From Desulfatitalea tepidiphila (GTDB lineage: Bacteria > Desulfobacterota > Desulfobacteria > Desulfobacterales > Desulfosarcinaceae): a DNA stretch of 64,000 nucleotides. Shown here in pieces: positions 30,750 to 54,478 of the stretch. The position numbers and the translations under genes are program-made. A model generated the notes under the pieces. That model was not told where the DNA came from, did no database searches, and worked only from the letters and a program-made list of their open reading frames with translations. Position 1 is the first letter of the stretch. Each line of letters begins with the position of its first letter. The DNA is taken from positions 1,736,001 through 1,800,000 of the forward strand of contig NZ_BCAG01000003.1 in assembly GCF_001293685.1 (NCBI RefSeq). Direction: 5' to 3'.

Positions 30750-31130
<381 letters not shown>

Positions 31131-33024: not shown

Positions 33025-33097
33025 TGGGCCCACCTGGGCTCGAACCAGGGACCGACCGGTTATGAGCCGGTGGCTCTACCAACTGAGCTATGGGCCC
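33025..33097 (-). tRNA. tRNA-Met (anticodon CAT)
   Basis: A 73-base tRNA from 33097 to 33025. The acceptor GGGCCCA pairs with TGGGCCC. The D-arm is GCTCAGTTGGTAGAGC, the anticodon arm ACCGG-CTCATAA-CCGGT, and the T-arm CCTGGTTCGAGCCCAGG. CCA is not encoded. CAT leaves elongator Met or lysidine-modified Ile2 possible; it is not an initiator (acceptor 1-72 is paired). It lies 51 bases after rpoD. Confidence 0.93.
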
Positions 33098-45477: not shown

Positions 45478-45727
45478 TTGATAAAAAAACTCGCAAGGCA
45501 ACGGTTATGGCAGGCGCGGGTGGGGCAGGTGGCCAGGGCCACATACGCCTTCGGTCAATAGTGCCGGTTTAATGCAAACGGCGGAAAAGCGGCCCAGACT
45601 GTTTGAGCGCAGCGAGTTTCTGGGCCGCCCGCCGTGCATTTTACCGGCACTTGACCGCTTGGCGTGTGGCATCGGCCACCTGTTCCACCCGGGCCGGATT
45701 AAAGGAATACTATTTATTTAGAATCGC
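45478..45727 (+). repeat. Giant hairpin repeat, copy 2
   Basis: Nearly identical to copy 1 at 21335 across the outer arms, the GCGGCCCAGACTGTTTGAGC inner arm, loop and right flank (ACTATTTATTTAGAATCG). It lies immediately upstream of the ilv promoter region. Small ORFs across it are products of the palindrome and are not genes. Confidence 0.87.
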
Positions 45728-45746: not shown

Positions 45747-45775
45747 TTGACAGCTTAGGGGCATATTGTTAAAGA
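45747..45775 (+). promoter_or_regulatory. Possible promoter for the ilv leader and operon
   Basis: A perfect TTGACA (45747-45752) is followed by 17 bases and a weak TAAAGA (45770-45775). It is about 28 bases before the leader-peptide start. A TATAAT at 45797-45802 is too near the leader ATG to be used for it. Confidence 0.35.
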
Positions 45776-45803
45776 CCGCTAAATTGCTCAGGTGACTATA
45801 ATT

Positions 45804-45902
45804 ATGAATTTCATCGCCATCCGACTTATTCTCGTCGAAATTATTATTCTCGTACTCGGTGTCCTTGAGAACACCGGGTCCAGGGGGGCGATAATGGTGT
45901 AA
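45804..45902 (+). CDS. ilvL: Ile/Leu/Val-rich leader peptide of the ilv operon
   Basis: A 32-codon ORF with AGGTGA eight bases before its ATG. Residues 4-21 contain 14 branched-chain residues out of 18 (six Ile, five Leu, three Val), including a run of three Ile. The stop is at 45900-45902. It fits a ribosome-stalling leader in attenuation: stalling when charged tRNA-Ile, -Leu or -Val is scarce would leave the 45885-45894 arm free to form an antiterminator. It is followed by the terminator at 45926-45965 and then ilvD. Confidence 0.88.
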   Translation: MNFIAIRLILVEIIILVLGVLENTGSRGAIMV

Positions 45903-45925
45903 GATAAATCCCCGGTGAAACCAAC

Positions 45926-45965
45926 AATCCGTTATCGGCCCCACGTCGATAACGGATTTTTTTTT
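45926..45965 (+). terminator. Attenuator terminator upstream of ilvD
   Basis: A perfect 12-bp stem, AATCCGTTATCG (45926-45937) with CGATAACGGATT (45947-45958), a 9-base loop and a run of Ts to 45965. It ends 15 bases before the ilvD ATG. Its 5' arm can instead pair with GGGGCGATAA (45885-45894) in the leader ORF (ten pairs with one bulge), an antiterminator. Confidence 0.9.
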
Positions 45966-45980
45966 GGAGGAAAGCAGCCC

Positions 45981-47660
45981 ATGAAAAGCAGCCAGGTCAA
46001 AGAAGGCATCGAACGCGCCCCCCATCGTGCATTGCTCAAGGCATGCGGCTATACCGATGCGGAAATCAAACGCCCCCTCATCGGCGTCGCCAATTCGGCC
46101 AACACGGTGGTTCCAGGCCATGTCCATCTGAACACCCTCGCCGACGCCGTCAAGGCCGGCATTTACATGGCCGGCGGCACCCCAGTGGAGTTCGGCGTCA
46201 TCGGCGTCTGCGATGGCATCGCCATGAACCATGAGGGAATGAAGTATTCTTTGGCCAGCCGTGAACTCATCGCCGACTCCGTCGAAATCATGGCCAGGGC
46301 CCATGGGCTCGACGCCCTGGTGCTGATCCCCAACTGCGACAAGATCGTTCCGGGCATGCTGATGGCAGCCGCCCGTCTCGACCTGCCGGCCATCTTCGTC
46401 AGCGGCGGTGCCATGCTCGCAGGCCGCCATCCCAATCAGCCCAACGGTCCCAAAATCGACCTGATCACCGTGTTCGAATCCGTGGGGGCGGTTCGATCCG
46501 GACGCATGAGCGAAGCCGAACTGGCCGAAGTGGAAGACGCCGCCTGCCCGACCTGCGGTTCGTGTTCCGGCATGTTCACCGCCAACTCCATGAACTGCCT
46601 GACCGAAGCCATCGGCATGGGGCTGCCGGGCAACGGCACCATTCCAGCCGTCATGTCGGCCCGCACACGATTGGCCAAACTGGCCGGCATGCAAATCCTC
46701 ACCCTGTGGAAAGAGCAGATCACACCGAGCCGCATCATGACGCCGCAGGCATTTGCCAACGCCCTGGCCGTGGATATGGCACTGGGCTGTTCGACCAACA
46801 CCGTGTTGCATCTCTCCGCCATCGCCCAGGAAGCGGGTGTTCCCTTTGACCTGAACCAGATTAACGAGATCAGCGGCCGAACGCCCCATTTGTGCTCGAT
46901 GAGCCCGGGCGGAAGCCATCATATCGAAGATCTGAATCGCGCCGGCGGCATCCAGGCGGTGATCAAAGAGTTGGCCAAAGGCGGCTTCATCGACGAAACC
47001 TGCATCACGGCCACCGCCAGAACCGTGGGCGAAAACATCCAAAATGCCGACATAAAAGATCCGGAAGTGATCCGTTCACTGGGCAATCCTTACCATCAAA
47101 CCGGCGGTCTGGCCGTGCTTTATGGCAATCTGGCGCCCAATGGCTGCGTGGTCAAACAAACGGCGGTGCGTGAAGAGATGCTGCGGCATCAGGGACCGGC
47201 CAGAGTATTCGATTCCGAGGACGATGCCACGAAGGCCATTCTGGACGGTCATATCAAAGGCGGCGATGTGGTCGTGGTGCGCTACGAAGGGCCCAAGGGC
47301 GGACCGGGCATGCGTGAAATGCTGACGCCGACCTCGGCCATCGCCGGCATGCAGCTCGACGGACAGGTGGCCCTGTTGACCGACGGCCGATTTTCCGGCG
47401 GGACGCGCGGCGCCGCCATCGGCCACATCTCTCCCGAAGCGGCCCAAGGCGGACCTATCGCCCTGGTCGAAGAAGGAGATCACATCGCCATCGACATTCC
47501 CGCCAGAAAGATCGTGCTTAAAGTTGAAGACACCGTATTGGAGGAACGGCGCAGCCGATGGCAGCCGCCGGAACCCAAAATTCGGACGGGCTATCTTTCG
47601 CGCTACGCGCAACTCGTCGGGTCGGCCGATTGCGGCGCGGTCTTCAGTGCGAAATCATAG
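45981..47660 (+). CDS. ilvD: Dihydroxy-acid dehydratase
   Basis: A 559-residue enzyme from the ATG at 45981 with GGAGGAAAG upstream; an upstream ATG at 45915 would read through the terminator. It dehydrates dihydroxy acids to 2-keto acids in valine/isoleucine synthesis. Cluster cysteines are present in [10 protein letters not shown] and in [16 protein letters not shown], and the C-terminal [20 protein letters not shown] is typical. It is first structural gene of the ilv-cim-leu operon and is controlled by the attenuator. Confidence 0.97.
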
Positions 47661-47692: not shown

Positions 47693-49378
47693 ATGGAACT
47701 GACAGGTGCACAAATTTTGATGACCATCCTCAAAGAGGAAGGCGTGGACACGATCTTCGGATTTCCGGGAGGCGCCGTCATCGACTTGTATGACGAGTTG
47801 ATCCGCAGCGACCTGCGACACATCCTGGTGCGGCACGAACAGGGCGCGGTGCACGCCGCGGACGGCTATGCCAGGGCTTCGGGCAAGGTCGGCGTCTGTC
47901 TTGTCACCTCAGGACCCGGCGCCACGAACACGGTCACGGGTATCGCCACGGCCTACATGGACTCCATTCCGCTGGTCATCATCACCGGCCAGGTTCCCAC
48001 ACAGCTCATCGGCAACGACGCCTTTCAGGAAGTGGACATCGTGGGCATCACGCGGCCCTGCACCAAACACAACTACCTGGTCAATCATGTCGAAGACCTG
48101 GCCAGGATATTGAAAGAGGCCTTCCACATCGCGCGCAGTGGACGTCCCGGGCCCGTTCTGGTGGACATTCCCAAGAATATCGGCGTGGCCAAAACAGACT
48201 ACCAGCCGATCACGGAAGTGAATATCAAGTCCTACAACCCGACCTATCATCCCAACACCAAACAGCTCAAAAAAGCGCTGAACCTGCTGAAAGCCGCCCA
48301 GCGGCCGCTCATCTTCAGCGGAGGCGGTGTCATTCTATCCAAGGCGTCCGACGAGTTGGCCGATTTGGCCCATCGACTCAAGATTCCAGTCACCAGCTCG
48401 TTGATGGGGCTGGGTGCATTTCCGGGTTCAGATCCGCTCTGGCTTGGCATGCTGGGCATGCACGGCACCTATCGGGCCAACATGGCGGTCTCCCAATGCG
48501 ATCTGATGGTTGCCGTGGGCGTGCGTTTCGACGACCGCGTCACTGGCAAAACCGACTGCTTTGCGAGCGGGGCCAAGATCATTCATATCGATATCGATCC
48601 CACCTCGATCCGCAAAAACATACCGGTCACCGTTCCGGTGGTCGGAGATTGTCGCAGCAGCCTGACCGAACTCAACCGTATGATCGTCGAGGAAGGGATT
48701 CAAGCCGACGAAACCACGCGCAGGGGGTGGCTGGATCAAATCGTCTTCTGGCGGGATGAGCACAAGCTGGCCTACGAACAGAAGGAGACCATCAAGCCCC
48801 AGTTCGTCATCGAAAAGCTCTACGAGTTGACCCGTGGCCAGGCCATCGTCACCACGGAAGTGGGGCAAAACCAGATGTGGGCGGCCCAATTCTACCATTT
48901 CGATCGCCCCCAGCAGTTCATCACGTCGGGCGGCCTGGGCACCATGGGATTCGGGCTGCCGGCCGCCATCGGCGCCCAAGTGGCTTTTCCGGAAAAAATG
49001 GTAGTCGACATCGCCGGGGACGGCAGCATTCAGATGAATATCCAGGAGATGGCCACTGCGGTTCAATACAACCTGCCGGTCAAGGTGGTCATTCTCAATA
49101 ACCGCTGCCTGGGCATGGTGCGCCAGTGGCAAGAGCTTTTTTACGATAAACGCTACGCCCACACGATTTTGGAACACGCACCGGATTTCGTTAAATTGGC
49201 CGAAGCGTTCGGCGCCAGGGGACTCCGCGCCTCGCACCCTGACGAAGTAGAGGCGACGCTGGCCGAAGGTCTGGAGACCAAAGGCCCGGTGATCATGGAG
49301 TTCATCGTGGCTTCCGAAGAGTGCGTCTATCCCATGGTACCGGCCGGCAAGGCGATCACGGACATGTTGTTGGTCTAG
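47693..49378 (+). CDS. ilvB: Acetolactate synthase, large (catalytic) subunit
   Basis: A 561-residue TPP enzyme. Motifs: VDTIFGFPGGAVIDLYDEL, RHEQGAVHAADGYARASGK (catalytic Glu), GPGATNTVTGIATAYMDSIP and the TPP/Mg motif VDIAGDGSIQMNIQEM with NNRCLGMV. It condenses pyruvate with pyruvate or 2-ketobutyrate. It is 32 bases downstream of ilvD and upstream of its regulatory subunit. Confidence 0.97.
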   Translation: MELTGAQILMTILKEEGVDTIFGFPGGAVIDLYDELIRSDLRHILVRHEQGAVHAADGYARASGKVGVCLVTSGPGATNTVTGIATAYMDSIPLVIITGQVPTQLIGNDAFQEVDIVGITRPCTKHNYLVNHVEDLARILKEAFHIARSGRPGPVLVDIPKNIGVAKTDYQPITEVNIKSYNPTYHPNTKQLKKALNLLKAAQRPLIFSGGGVILSKASDELADLAHRLKIPVTSSLMGLGAFPGSDPLWLGMLGMHGTYRANMAVSQCDLMVAVGVRFDDRVTGKTDCFASGAKIIHIDIDPTSIRKNIPVTVPVVGDCRSSLTELNRMIVEEGIQADETTRRGWLDQIVFWRDEHKLAYEQKETIKPQFVIEKLYELTRGQAIVTTEVGQNQMWAAQFYHFDRPQQFITSGGLGTMGFGLPAAIGAQVAFPEKMVVDIAGDGSIQMNIQEMATAVQYNLPVKVVILNNRCLGMVRQWQELFYDKRYAHTILEHAPDFVKLAEAFGARGLRASHPDEVEATLAEGLETKGPVIMEFIVASEECVYPMVPAGKAITDMLLV

Positions 49379-49479: not shown

Positions 49480-49977
49480 ATGAACTCAAACAAACATACC
49501 TTGACCATGTTGGTCGACAACGAACCGGGCGTTCTATCCCGTGTGGTGGGACTGTTCAGCGGCAGAGGATTCAACATCGACAGTCTGTGCGTAGCCGAAA
49601 CCCTGGATCCCAAAGTATCGCGCGTCACGATCGTCACCCAGGCCAACAAACCGCTCCTCGAACAAATCGAAAAGCAATTGCGCAAACTCATCAATGTCGT
49701 CAAGCTGCGCGACATGTCCGATGATCGTGCCGTTCGCAGGGAAATGGCCCTGATCTGCGTGCACGCGCGGCCCGAAAACCGCGACGAGATTCTGCGGCTC
49801 GTCAATTTATTTCGCGCAAAAGTCATCGACGTGGCCTCCAATTACTACACCATCGAGGCCAGCGGAGACGCAGATAAGATGACCGCCCTCATCGGTCTTT
49901 TAAAACCCATGGGCATCAAAAAAATCGCCCGCACCGGCACGGTGGCTTTGTATCGTGAACCCAAGCGCGGCATATAA
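49480..49977 (+). CDS. ilvN: Acetolactate synthase, small (regulatory) subunit
   Basis: A 165-residue subunit from the ATG at 49480; the frame upstream reads out of ilvB and is not used. The N-terminal ACT domain starts HTLTMLVDNEPGVLSRVVGLF with RGFNIDSLCVA and is followed by an ALS_ss_C domain (RREMALICVHA; MGIKKIARTGTVAL). It binds valine and gives feedback control of IlvB. It lies between ilvB and ilvC in the operon. Confidence 0.95.
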   Translation: MNSNKHTLTMLVDNEPGVLSRVVGLFSGRGFNIDSLCVAETLDPKVSRVTIVTQANKPLLEQIEKQLRKLINVVKLRDMSDDRAVRREMALICVHARPENRDEILRLVNLFRAKVIDVASNYYTIEASGDADKMTALIGLLKPMGIKKIARTGTVALYREPKRGI

Positions 49978-50113: not shown

Positions 50114-51172
50114 ATGGCAAAAATCGATTTCGGCGGTGTCGTAGAAGAGGTTATCACTTCTGAAGAATTTACCCTCGAAAAGGCCCGCCAGGTCCTGGCA
50201 AACGAAACCATCGTGGTCTTGGGTTATGGCGTACAGGGCCCGGCCCAGGCACTGAATATGCGCGACAACGGCTTCAACGTCATCGTGGGGCAGCGCGAAG
50301 GCAACAAGTCCTGCTGGGACAAAGCCGTCGCCGACGGCTTCGTGCCCGGAAAGACCCTGTTCCCCATCGAAGAAGCGGCCAGGCGGGGAACCCTCATCCA
50401 ATACCTGCTCTCCGATGCCGGCCAGATGGCCACCTGGCCCCAGATCAAACAATGTTTGAATCCCGGAGACGCCCTCTACTTTTCCCATGGCTTTTCCATC
50501 GTCTACAAAGACCAGACCCACATCATCCCGCCCAAGGATGTCGATGTGATCCTCGTGGCGCCCAAGGGCTCGGGCCGCAATGTGCGTCTGAATTTTCTGG
50601 ACGGCAGCGGCATCAACTCGAGCTACGCCGTGTTCCAGGATGCCACCGGCCGTGCCGCCGAGCGCACCATTGCCGCGGGCATTGCCATCGGTTCGGGATA
50701 TCTGTTCCCCACCACTTTCGAAAAAGAGGTGTTCAGCGATCTGACCGGCGAGCGCGGTGTGCTGATGGGATGTCTGGCCGGTGTGATGGAGGCCCAATAC
50801 ACGCTCTTGCGCAAACATGGTCACAGCCCGAGCGAAGCCTTCAATGAGACCGTCGAGGAGTTGACCCAGAGTCTGATCCGGCTGGTGGCCGAAAACGGCA
50901 TGGACTGGATGTATGCCAACTGCAGCACCACGGCCCAGCGAGGCGCGTTGGATTGGGCGCCCAAGTTCCGCAAAGCCGTGGAGCCCGTATTCGACGATCT
51001 TTATGAAAGCGTGGCCAACGGCACCGAAACCCGGCGCGTTCTGGATGTCAACACTGCCCCGGACTACCGGGAAAAACTCAACGCCGAACTGAAAATCATC
51101 GGCGACAGCGAAATGTGGCGGGCCGGGCGTGCGGTTCGCAGTCTGCGGCCGGAGAACCGCGCAAAAAAATAG
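50114..51172 (+). CDS. ilvC: Ketol-acid reductoisomerase
   Basis: A 352-residue enzyme from the ATG at 50114 with AAGGAG upstream. The Rossmann loop reads VVLGYGVQGPAQALNMRDNG (GxGxxG) and the KARI core contains LVAPKGSGRNVR and DLTGERGVLMGCLAGVMEAQ with metal-binding Asp/Glu. The C-terminal knot has ANCSTTAQRGALDW. It rearranges and reduces acetohydroxy acids. The 136-base gap before it contains a tandem TGTTTCAGGTTCA pair near 50035-50063. Confidence 0.95.
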   Translation: MAKIDFGGVVEEVITSEEFTLEKARQVLANETIVVLGYGVQGPAQALNMRDNGFNVIVGQREGNKSCWDKAVADGFVPGKTLFPIEEAARRGTLIQYLLSDAGQMATWPQIKQCLNPGDALYFSHGFSIVYKDQTHIIPPKDVDVILVAPKGSGRNVRLNFLDGSGINSSYAVFQDATGRAAERTIAAGIAIGSGYLFPTTFEKEVFSDLTGERGVLMGCLAGVMEAQYTLLRKHGHSPSEAFNETVEELTQSLIRLVAENGMDWMYANCSTTAQRGALDWAPKFRKAVEPVFDDLYESVANGTETRRVLDVNTAPDYREKLNAELKIIGDSEMWRAGRAVRSLRPENRAKK

Positions 51173-51184
51173 GATAGGAAAATC

Positions 51185-52777
51185 ATGAAACAGGTGCTCA
51201 TCTACGACACCACGCTTCGGGACGGCAGTCAGGGTGAAAACATCAACTTCTCGTCGGAGGAGATGATCAAAATCGCCAAAAGGCTCGATCAGACCGGGGT
51301 TCACTATATCGAAGGCGGGTGGCCGGGATCCAATTTAAGGGATGCCCGTTTCTTCGAACTGGCCCGCAGGGAAAAATTCACCCACGCACGCCTTACCGCG
51401 TTCGGTTCGACACGCAAAGCCAACACGGCCGCCGAAGAGGATCCCAATCTCAAGGCCTTGATCGACTGCCAGGCGCCGGCCGTGGCCATTGTCGGCAAAT
51501 CCTGGCCCCTGCATGTCGAAGAGGTGATGGGCAATACACGAGAAGAGAACCTGGCCATGATCCAGGAGAGCGTAGCGCTTCTAAAATCCCACGGCCGGGA
51601 GGTCATCTACGATGCCGAGCACTTTTTTGACGCCTGCAAAGAAGATGCACCCTACGCCCTTGAAACCCTCTTCGCGGCGGCCCGGGCCGGCGCCGATGTC
51701 CTGGTGTTGTGCGATACCAACGGCGGCACCCTGCCCCACGACATCGAATCGATCGTGGGTCAAATCCATCAGGAGTTGACCGCTAACGGCATCGAACCTC
51801 GCCTGGGCATTCATGCCCACAACGACTGCGGCTTGGCCGTGGCCAACACCATTGCCGCACTGCGTGCCGGTGCGGTTCTGGCCCAGGGAACCGTAAACGG
51901 ATATGGGGAACGCTGCGGCAACGCCGACCTGATCACCGTCATCCCGCTGTTGAGTCTTAAAATGGGGATGCGCACCATTCCCGAAGATAAATTCGTGCAC
52001 TTGAAGAACCTGTCCCGTTTTGTCAGCGAAACGGCCAACATCGTGCCGCTCAATTCCAGACCCTTCGTGGGGCGCAGCGCCTTTGCGCACAAAGGCGGAC
52101 TGCACGTCAATGCCATCATGAAAGTGCCGCGGGCTTACGAACACATGGACCCGGCGCTGGTCGGCAATCAACGCCGCGTGCTGGTATCGGACCTGGGAGG
52201 CAGGAGCAACATCATCTACAAGGCCAAAGAGCTGGGGGTCGAACTGGGCGGCAATGGCTTCGACAGCCATCAGATCGCCGCAGAGATCAAGGCGCTCGAA
52301 GATAAAGGGTATCAATTCGATGTGGCCGATGGCTCCATGAAGATCCTGCTGCAGAAATTCACGGAACAGTTCGTCCCGCTCTTCGCGCTGGAGAAGTTCC
52401 GGGTCTCCATCGAAAAAGACAAAGATCAACCTTGCCGGGCCTACGCCACCATCAAGATCAATGTGGGGGGTACCTCAGAAATCACCGCCGCCGAAGGAAA
52501 GGGACCGGTGAGCGCCCTAGACAACGCCTTGCGCAAGGCACTGGCCAAATTCTATCCCGATCTGGGGAGTATGGGTCTGGTGGATTTCAAGGTGCGCGTC
52601 ATCGACGGCCGAAGCGGCACCCAAGCCAAGGTGCGCGTGTTTATCGAATCCCGGGACAGCGACGATATCTGGAGCACCATCGGCGTCTCGGAAGACATCA
52701 TTGAAGCGAGTTGGCAGGCCCTGGCCGACAGCTTCCAGTACAAGCTGGCCAAACAGGAGGAATCCAACCCATTATGA
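51185..52777 (+). CDS. cimA: (R)-citramalate synthase
   Basis: A 530-residue enzyme of the DRE-TIM family. The start LIYDTTLRDGSQGENINFS is the CimA-type version of the DTTLRDG motif, differing from the LeuA version in the next gene. HAHNDCGLAVANTIAAL, QGTVNGYGERCGNADL and FAHKGGLHVNAI follow, as does a C-terminal LeuA_dimer allosteric domain (about 400-520). It condenses pyruvate and acetyl-CoA to citramalate, a threonine-independent route to 2-ketobutyrate for isoleucine. ilvA is not present here. Confidence 0.93.
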   Translation: MKQVLIYDTTLRDGSQGENINFSSEEMIKIAKRLDQTGVHYIEGGWPGSNLRDARFFELARREKFTHARLTAFGSTRKANTAAEEDPNLKALIDCQAPAVAIVGKSWPLHVEEVMGNTREENLAMIQESVALLKSHGREVIYDAEHFFDACKEDAPYALETLFAAARAGADVLVLCDTNGGTLPHDIESIVGQIHQELTANGIEPRLGIHAHNDCGLAVANTIAALRAGAVLAQGTVNGYGERCGNADLITVIPLLSLKMGMRTIPEDKFVHLKNLSRFVSETANIVPLNSRPFVGRSAFAHKGGLHVNAIMKVPRAYEHMDPALVGNQRRVLVSDLGGRSNIIYKAKELGVELGGNGFDSHQIAAEIKALEDKGYQFDVADGSMKILLQKFTEQFVPLFALEKFRVSIEKDKDQPCRAYATIKINVGGTSEITAAEGKGPVSALDNALRKALAKFYPDLGSMGLVDFKVRVIDGRSGTQAKVRVFIESRDSDDIWSTIGVSEDIIEASWQALADSFQYKLAKQEESNPL

Positions 52778-52939: not shown

Positions 52940-54478
52940 ATGACCGAACTGGTTAAAATTTTCGACACGACGTTGCGCGACGGCGAGCAATCGCCCGGTG
53001 CAAGTATGAACACGGCGGAGAAGTTGCGACTGGCCATCCAACTGGAAAAGTTGGGTGTGGATATCATCGAAGCCGGTTTTCCGGCAGCCTCGGAAGGCGA
53101 TTTTGATGCCGTCTCCCAAATTGCCGGCCGACTCAAGGTAACGGAAGTCGCCGGATTGGCCCGAGCCGACAAAGCGGACATCGACTGCGCCTGGGGCGCC
53201 ATCAAAGATGCCGCCAAACCCAGGATCCACACCTTTCTGGCCACTTCCGACATCCACCTGGAATACAAGCTGCGGATGAATCGTGATCAGGTGCTGGCCC
53301 AAGTCAAGGATGCCGTGACCTACGCCAAAAGCCTGACCGACAACGTGGAGTTTTCTGCGGAAGACGGCTCCCGCAGCGACCGCGATTTTCTCTGTAAAGT
53401 CTTCGAAGCCGCCATCGCGGCCGGTGCGACCACGGTCAACCTGCCCGACACGGTCGGCTATGCCATTCCCAATGAGTTTGCCGACCTGGTCCAATATGTC
53501 ATGCAGCATACGCCGAACATCCACAAGGCGATCGTCAGCATCCATTGCCACAACGATCTGGGTCTGGCCACGGCCAATACCCTGGCCGCCCTGGCGGTCG
53601 GTGCCCGGCAAGCCGAGGTGACGGTCAACGGCATCGGCGAACGGGCCGGCAACACCTCCCTGGAAGAGGTGGTGATGGCCTTGCGGACACGCAACAACTA
53701 CATGCCGCTGCACACCAACATCAAGACCGAGCACATTTACCCCACCAGTCGATTGGTCAGCATGATCACCGGTATCATGGTACAGCCCAACAAGGCCATC
53801 GTGGGCGCCAATGCCTTCTCCCACGAAGCCGGCATCCACCAGGACGGCGTACTCAAGAATCCCATGACGTACGAAATCATGAAACCGGAAACCATCGGCC
53901 TGAACGCCAACAAACTGGTGCTGGGCAAACACTCGGGCCGCCATGCCTTGCGGGAGCATCTCAAGGATCTGGGCTACGATCTGTCCGACGAAGAACTGCG
54001 CCTGGTCTTCGATAAATTCAAGGCCCTGGCCGACAAAAAGAAACATGTGGTCGACGAGGACCTGGAAGCCATCGTCACCGAAGGCGTCCTGCGCACCACG
54101 GAAACCTTCTCCCTGGAGTACCTGCATGTTTCGGCAGGTACCACCGTCATGCCCATGGCCAGCGTGCAGCTCTCCATCAACGGCCGCTCGATCAAAGGCG
54201 CCGGATACGGTAATGGTCCCATCGACGCCGCCTACAACACTATTGCCAAGCTCACCCACACCGAATCCGAACTGCTGCGCTTCACGGTCAGCGCCTTGAC
54301 CGGCGGCACCGATGCCCAGGGTGAAGTGACCGTGAGGCTCAAGGAAAATGGACTGGTGGCCCTCGGCCGGGGATCGGACCCCGACATCATCACGGCCAGC
54401 GCCCTTGCGTATATCAATGGCTTGAACCGCATGGAGTACCTGAAATCCCACCCGATAGAACGCGCCCAAAGTTTGTAG
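52940..54478 (+). CDS. leuA: 2-isopropylmalate synthase
   Basis: A 512-residue enzyme that commits carbon to leucine. Motifs: [54 protein letters not shown] and [15 protein letters not shown]. The C-terminal regulatory domain (about 385-505) senses leucine. GAGGTAAAAAA precedes the ATG. It is last gene of the operon, followed by a hairpin terminator; leuB, leuC and leuD are not in the window. Confidence 0.97.

Follow-up and report, generated by a model that had tools for sequence, protein, structure and literature searches.

How is an operon for the synthesis of isoleucine, leucine and valine controlled in Desulfatitalea tepidiphila? The window, by which we mean the whole stretch of 64,000 nucleotides analysed here, carries the genes ilvD (45981..47660, NCBIfam TIGR00110), ilvB (47693..49378, TIGR00118), ilvN (49480..49977, NF008864 and TIGR00119; the query began 6 nt before the ATG), ilvC (50114..51172, TIGR00465), cimA for citramalate synthase (51185..52777, TIGR00977) and leuA (52940..54478, TIGR00973), all on the plus strand, as are the features below unless stated otherwise. 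The six genes score above the NCBIfam cut-offs, which confirms the operon as named in an earlier reading made from the letters of the window alone (the sequence-only reading). That reading placed a ribosome-mediated transcription attenuator in front of ilvD, the first gene of the controlled operon. We are highly confident that the element is such an attenuator, on the strength of comparing the leader, the terminator, the antiterminator, a hairpin termed P1 and the geometry of stop and stall positions between genomes and, to a lesser degree, a pairing of leader codons termed region 1:X. Translation of the leader, pausing and a response to starvation are predicted from these comparisons.

An Ile/Leu/Val-rich leader ORF is conserved upstream of ilvD

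The leader peptide ORF (45804..45902), taken from the ORF list and the sequence, comprises 32 codons from its ATG to the stop codon TAA at 45900..45902, where a ribosome would cover the antiterminator strand X described below. Ile, Leu or Val make up 14 of the 18 residues at positions 4-21 of the translated peptide. Among the 842 distinct stop codons that close ORFs of 20-60 codons on both strands of the window, the leader's is the sole one with at least 14 such residues in 18. A ribosome-binding site, AGGTGA (45790..45795), lies 8 nt 5' of the ATG and forms an anti-Shine-Dalgarno duplex of -8.1 kcal/mol; the ORF, its composition and its ribosome-binding site are thus as the sequence-only reading had them. 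Upstream of it we found a predicted promoter-like sequence, TTGACA-17-TAAAGA (45747..45775), which that reading did not include and which our automatic promoter rule missed because the rule demands T as the final -10 base. Transcription would start near 45782, and TTGACA is found 56-58 nt 5' of the leader ATG in the eight same-genus sequences printed. G002, another genome of the genus, has the same sequence in front of its ilvD. Farther upstream, positions 45555-45655 form a long imperfect hairpin (fold z -8.6), which is a copy of a dispersed palindromic repeat: the genome contains 107 occurrences of a 30-base motif within it when up to 3 mismatches are allowed (reversed-pattern control, 0), and two further listed copies lie in the window at about 21454 and 57215.

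We then asked how widely the leader occurs, counting ORFs of 14-60 codons with at least 9 Ile, Leu or Val in 12 residues no more than 300 nt from ilvD. Such an ORF was present at 64 of the 71 ilvD orthologues (at least 66% identity) of the order Desulfobacterales versus 2 of 68 control upstream regions (from loci L042-L111, mostly other phyla or classes), so that the conservation of the leader, which the sequence-only reading had proposed as a check, was borne out. By the same criterion, no leader ORF was found at the 11 loci of the order whose ilvD-like gene is a distant one. As for the seven orthologues that were missed, L142 and L152 are near misses with scores of 7 and 8, the leader of L179 sits farther upstream of ilvD, and that of L134 is truncated; L145, L146 and L149 have no element before ilvD because cimA precedes ilvD in these three loci. 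The complete order ilvD-B-N-C-cimA-leuA was seen in 45 of the 71 order loci, many of the rest ending early at contig ends or at the limits of the stretch examined; an ilvC match between ilvB and cimA is absent in seven, one of which (L144) also has no match for ilvB and ilvN.

The two control loci with a leader invite a remark of their own. Both lie outside the order. L093 has an Ile/Leu/Val-rich leader ORF upstream of ilvD; L108 (5273-5425) has, besides such a leader, a terminator that differs in sequence and a strand able to pair with this terminator (-20.3 kcal/mol). Both are possibly independent attenuators.

A hairpin kept while the ORF or its Ile/Leu/Val codons are lost is what the sequence-only reading had taken to speak against it. 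We found this in one of the 71 order orthologues, L134 of genome G067, and in none of the others. The same genome has a second match to our covariance model (see below), L320, before ilvB, and its ORF is likewise poor in Ile, Leu and Val. Poor leaders at both sites of G067 count against the attenuator; the two terminator-like matches with short or Ile/Leu/Val-poor ORFs are possibly decaying attenuators.

For tests on the leaders themselves we used 103 sequences, 69 and 16 from the order and 18 from other orders, leaving out L264, four plain terminators and the ten further R1 loci described below. Their Shine-Dalgarno pairing averages -3.26 kcal/mol versus -2.18 in shuffled sequences and reaches -4 kcal/mol or below in 35 of the 103 (null 18%); it is better than chance, yet weak in many leaders, a further point against the attenuator.

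Terminator and antiterminator compete for a common strand and covary

An intrinsic terminator (45926..45965) follows the leader, with 14 pairs between 45926-45939 and 45945-45958 and a T-run at 45957-45965 that ends 15 bases before the ilvD ATG at 45981. The sequence-only reading had described it as a perfect helix of 12 bp; its existence, T-run and spacing hold, while its length is 14 pairs. Its predicted 3' arm, 45945-45958, is termed E (region 4). The 5' strand of the antiterminator, X (region 2, 45884..45897), falls within the last codons of the leader ORF, beside the stop codon, and its 3' strand, D (region 3, 45929..45942), is made up of bases from the terminator's 5' arm and loop. Pairs form between 45884-45887 and 45939-45942 and between 45889-45897 and 45929-45937, giving a duplex of -24.4 kcal/mol. 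An antiterminator that consumes the 5' arm of the terminator had thus been recognized correctly, although the extent then given (45885-45894 with 45932-45942) was too short.

We examined both helices in alignment A1 of 69 sequences, which had been chosen for carrying the element. L003 (whose ilvD is 100% identical to, and whose leader is the same as, that of the window), L134, L141, L145, L146 and L149 had been dropped from it, and L035, L039, L040 and L041 gained. In the terminator, 96.4% of cells pair and 7 of 14 pairs are changed on both sides; in the antiterminator, 83.3% of cells pair and 9 of 15 pairs are changed on both sides, the two tests not being independent since D is common to both helices. 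For every covariation measure, no more than 10 of 500 shuffles did as well and slid versions of the helices scored lower, and with this the covariation that the sequence-only reading had suggested looking for was found in both. Moreover, X pairs better with its own D than with swapped ones (0/200 permutations as good). Single cases of compensation are GGGCAGGTAGCGG with CCGTTACTTGCCC in L140 and GGTCGGTAATGG with CCGTTACCGACC in L319/L321.

RNAalifold, run unaided, recovered the terminator alone from A1 and nothing from alignment A3; because it found neither P1 nor X:D, both rest on structures that we had named beforehand. A pairing GGGG/CCCC of X with 45910-45913, possible in the eight genus members of alignment A2, never varies and was set aside as uninformative. 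The terminator lies 16-147 nt from ilvD in the 67 loci measured, which fits transcriptional control better than translational control.

An inner hairpin and the leader codons likely complete the layout in the order

Between the leader codons and X we identified a hairpin that the sequence-only reading did not contain, P1 (45854..45879; 45854-45862 with 45871-45879), by folding, covariation and recoding tests. Its 5' arm overlaps the last Leu/Gly/Val codons, and it is enclosed by the pairing of region 1 with X. The 44 nt before X fold with a mean z of -3.13 over the 103 leaders (z below -1.5 in 81). In the window, P1 by itself has a moderate z of -2.3, and a 76-nt stretch containing it does not fold more stably than its shuffles (z 0.10). 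Of the P1 cells in the alignment, 76.6% pair and 82 carry changes on both sides, versus 37 in shuffles (0/500 as high); double changes occur in 12 pairs, a number that 17/500 shuffles reach too. In 63 of 85 order leaders (51/69 and 12/16), no more than 3 of 60 synonymous recodings were as stable as the native P1; the 18 leaders from other orders gave no such support (0/18). P1 would probably act as a hairpin at which RNA polymerase pauses near X.

That function had originally been offered for a third helix, 45872-45878 with 45911-45917. The perfect 7-bp match is present in the window (-14.6 kcal/mol), and five of eight genus members support it (at most 5/100 shuffles as good). As a general part of the element we rejected it, and its proposed role as a pause hairpin is not supported: its mean z over the 103 leaders is -0.10, with at most 5/100 shuffles as good in only 10 of them. 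On sequence comparison, its 5' strand makes better sense as the 3' arm of P1.

Region 1, which is also new, consists of the Ile13-Ile14-Ile15-Leu16 codons (45840..45851) and, judging from folds and a swap test, would pair with X before D is made. Folds that include X and not D pair X with upstream codons around P1, by at least six pairs, in 66/69 and 14/16 order leaders and in 9/18 others. In the order, region 1 pairs with its own X at -12.44 kcal/mol versus -11.28 kcal/mol with the X of other leaders (0/200 permutations as good; negative control 75/200), a test that common ancestry may inflate and that still gave 0/200 without the two nearest clades. Among the 18 leaders from other orders, own pairs did no better than swapped ones in this test (95/200). 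Compared with synonymous recodings, the gain is small (mean z -0.79 and -0.64; 13/85 at the 3-of-60 level). Region 1:X likely completes the classic four-segment layout (1:2, 2:3, 3:4) in this order, and the pairing of leader codons with X strengthens the E. coli-like logic that the sequence-only reading had proposed. A further idea, that an untranslated leader is ON since P1 shares no strand with the antiterminator, was dropped: the folds behind it ended before X, and folds including X pair it with leader codons.

The element precedes branched-chain operons within and beyond the order

A covariance model of the attenuator, R1, matches the 5.6-Mb genome of the window once and 254 of 291 genomes of the order. 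Across the phylum it matches 40 of 297 sampled genomes, 10 of which belong to the order, a tally that includes false positives because the E-values of plain terminators overlap those of true sites (L274, L278). Four such plain terminators without an Ile/Leu/Val-rich ORF (L268, L269, L288, L289; E 3e-4 to 6e-6) were rejected. Taken over the order and other orders together, matches lie before operons that begin with ilvD, ilvB, cimA or leuA. Among 39 sites fetched, 35 combine an Ile/Leu/Val-rich ORF with a following branched-chain gene, namely ilvB (14), cimA (1), ilvD (1) or, in one case, ilvC about 1.1 kb on for sites in the order, and cimA (14), leuA (2) or ilvB (2) for sites outside it. Seven of ten further R1 loci have leader and gene; L314 has a leader and no gene found, its match lying 75 bases from a contig end, L320 has ilvB with the poor leader mentioned above, and L323 has neither. 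Four genomes (G334, G478, G503, G545) carry two elements each before separate branched-chain loci, and in G069, one of the genomes of the three loci with cimA ahead of ilvD, the element is located about 0.3 kb upstream of the cimA match.

R1 found no match in 37 order genomes; 11 of the 20 checked have no ilvB match of at least 60% identity. Three genomes of family f64 (G092, G133, G164) have ilvB and no R1 match, and in G092, where cimA stands before ilvD, a second search found no element either. A distant DNA search of plasmids returned no record covering 80% of the query.

Two reading frames place the leader stop codon at the antiterminator strand

We classified the reading frame of the stop codon relative to X in 68 order leaders. 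The stop falls inside X in 42 (two of them just before it), just after X in 25 and in the third frame in one. Both main frames occur within the genus of the window, and parsimony on the ilvD tree, from which L122 with its short ilvD was left out, gives 12 changes between them, a soft figure given that only 12 of the 65 branches are starred.

These frames bear on the possibility that the ORF product itself functions as a small hydrophobic membrane peptide, perhaps type I toxin-like, whose mRNA the terminator ends. Short hydrophobic peptides rich in Ile, Leu and Val exist, and the leader peptide is very hydrophobic. The C-terminus, however, is read in different frames within one genus while the RNA motif stays constant, X covaries with the terminator arm, and the ORF is tied to branched-chain operons (35/39 sites versus 0/11 distant ilvD-like loci), so that we regard a membrane peptide as very improbable.

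The attenuator, by comparison, predicts a definite place for the stop codon. We assumed a ribosome footprint that extends from -22 to +14 about the A-site codon. On this assumption, at least 70% of X is hidden by a ribosome at the stop in 102 of the 103 leaders, and 1423 of 1525 Ile/Leu/Val codons leave X free when occupied (73 of the other 102 lie at or after the start of X), with the caveat that such footprint tests impose the geometry they score. When the ribosome was modelled as a block to folding, the antiterminator (at least seven X:D pairs) formed in 0/103 leaders with the ribosome at the stop. It formed on average at 95%, 94% and 77% of the upstream Ile/Leu/Val stall positions in the 69 and the 16 order leaders and in the 18 leaders from other orders, respectively. 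For the window, stalling at codons 2-24 allows X:D (p at least 0.95), and a position from codon 25 to the stop does not (p at most 0.08).

Without a ribosome, X:D folds in 77/103 leaders when D is present. In a transcript ending after X, upstream pairing holds X in 84/85 order leaders without a ribosome and still does so at 804 of 1158 stall positions, which means that in the model stalling alone does not free X before D is made. The outcome would thus depend on X:D displacing the upstream pairings of X. For the window, the model at equilibrium of the full-length RNA favours the terminator in every case (p(D:E) at least 0.95), which means that the switch has to be kinetic.

The terminator is contained in the lowest-energy fold of the whole leader, which would also suit a constitutive terminator, placed between promoter and ilvD to lower expression without sensing. 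Against this stand the conserved leader ORF, the covarying antiterminator and the placing of the stop codon at X, and we consider it highly unlikely.

Relation to known leader elements

Riboswitches and T-boxes control branched-chain genes elsewhere. Rfam returned no match at the gathering score for the window leader and 18 related loci, and chance-level matches only at relaxed thresholds (window leader and one relative); for T-boxes there was none at the gathering threshold in the window and the 18 loci, and the window leader gave none with E values allowed up to 10. That a T-box, or a riboswitch binding a metabolite or ppGpp, acts on the same terminator is extremely improbable given these searches and a conserved core made up of leader codons, P1, X, D and E, even though weak riboswitch candidates have been named before ilvD and ilvB (PMC8632094). 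The Rfam search of the window also returned, on the minus strand, a class A RNase P RNA (30750-31125) and two tRNA genes (33025-33097 and 1723-1806).

The E. coli ilvGMEDA and ilvBN leaders are leader-peptide attenuators as well. In leader-peptide attenuation in E. coli, a leader with regulatory codons goes together with an early hairpin and with alternative antiterminator and terminator structures, and a ribosome at the stop codon favours termination (PMC1183508). The element described here has in common with the E. coli trp, his, ilvGMEDA and ilvBN attenuators a leader ORF of regulatory codons, an early hairpin with a likely region 1 within these codons, an antiterminator that competes with a terminator, and a stop codon at which a ribosome would favour termination. 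It differs in phylum and gene order, with no sequence relation shown, in the long inner hairpin P1 nested in region 1:2, and in a leader stop that two different frames place within or next to the antiterminator strand.

Among other elements, the Corynebacterium ilvBNC attenuator (ilvB-II motif), for which reporter and mutant tests are published, also combines a branched-chain leader ORF with an early hairpin, antiterminator and terminator; its peptides usually have 15-17 residues, and its representatives come from one genus and lie before ilvB (PMC10272879, PMC11857589). The ilvB-OMG and Leptospira ilvB motifs are likewise proposed branched-chain leader-ORF attenuators, with 41 and 7 described representatives that are Thr-rich too (PMC10272879). 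The Veillonella ilvD motif (WRC-18-2) is a cis element before ilvD, some examples with a potential terminator, and is described as a weak riboswitch candidate of one genus (PMC8632094). Our family matches no amino acid leader family at the gathering score in the Rfam copy searched, which may lack ilvB-OMG and ilvB-II. A literature search by title and start of abstract found no such element described in this phylum among the papers listed; an earlier mention is possible, for example in the proteobacterial survey of Vitreschak et al. (2004) or in a 2017 motif paper.

A working model for attenuation

Conservation and covariation of leader, terminator and antiterminator support the attenuator reading, and we propose the following model. 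Region 1, formed by Ile/Leu/Val codons, would pair with X around P1, and P1 would probably make RNA polymerase pause near X. With ample charged Ile-, Leu- and Val-tRNA, the ribosome would reach the stop codon in or just beside X and cover X; D would then be free to form the terminator with E, and transcription would end before the first gene. With scarce charged tRNA, the ribosome would stall on Ile/Leu/Val codons and occupy region 1, leaving X to pair with D ahead of the synthesis of E; transcription would then go on. Were no ribosome present, X could be held by region 1, and if the trp system is a guide, termination would be favoured. Taken together, the comparisons point to a real and well-conserved attenuator of a known kind, with predicted regulation, in a family that is apparently undescribed.

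More tentatively, and with somewhat less than even confidence, we suggest a phylum-wide family in which one strand (consensus GGGGNTGATAATGGCNTAA) serves as antiterminator strand, as partner of Ile/Leu codons and as a cassette offering stops in two of three frames, with selection on the leader codons acting on pairing in addition to coding. Certain leader codons look like the terminator strand CCGTTATCAGCC, an example being ACCTTATTAGCC in L163. If the strand does have these three jobs, leaders can switch frame with control kept, and if codons are selected for pairing, recurrent peptide motifs may reflect selection on RNA, not on protein. One RNA motif read in two frames offers a natural series that separates RNA from peptide selection. 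R1 can be used for annotation, and in a group of environmental anaerobes for which our searches turned up no described mechanism, the attenuator is a likely means of controlling branched-chain synthesis, the citramalate route to isoleucine included.
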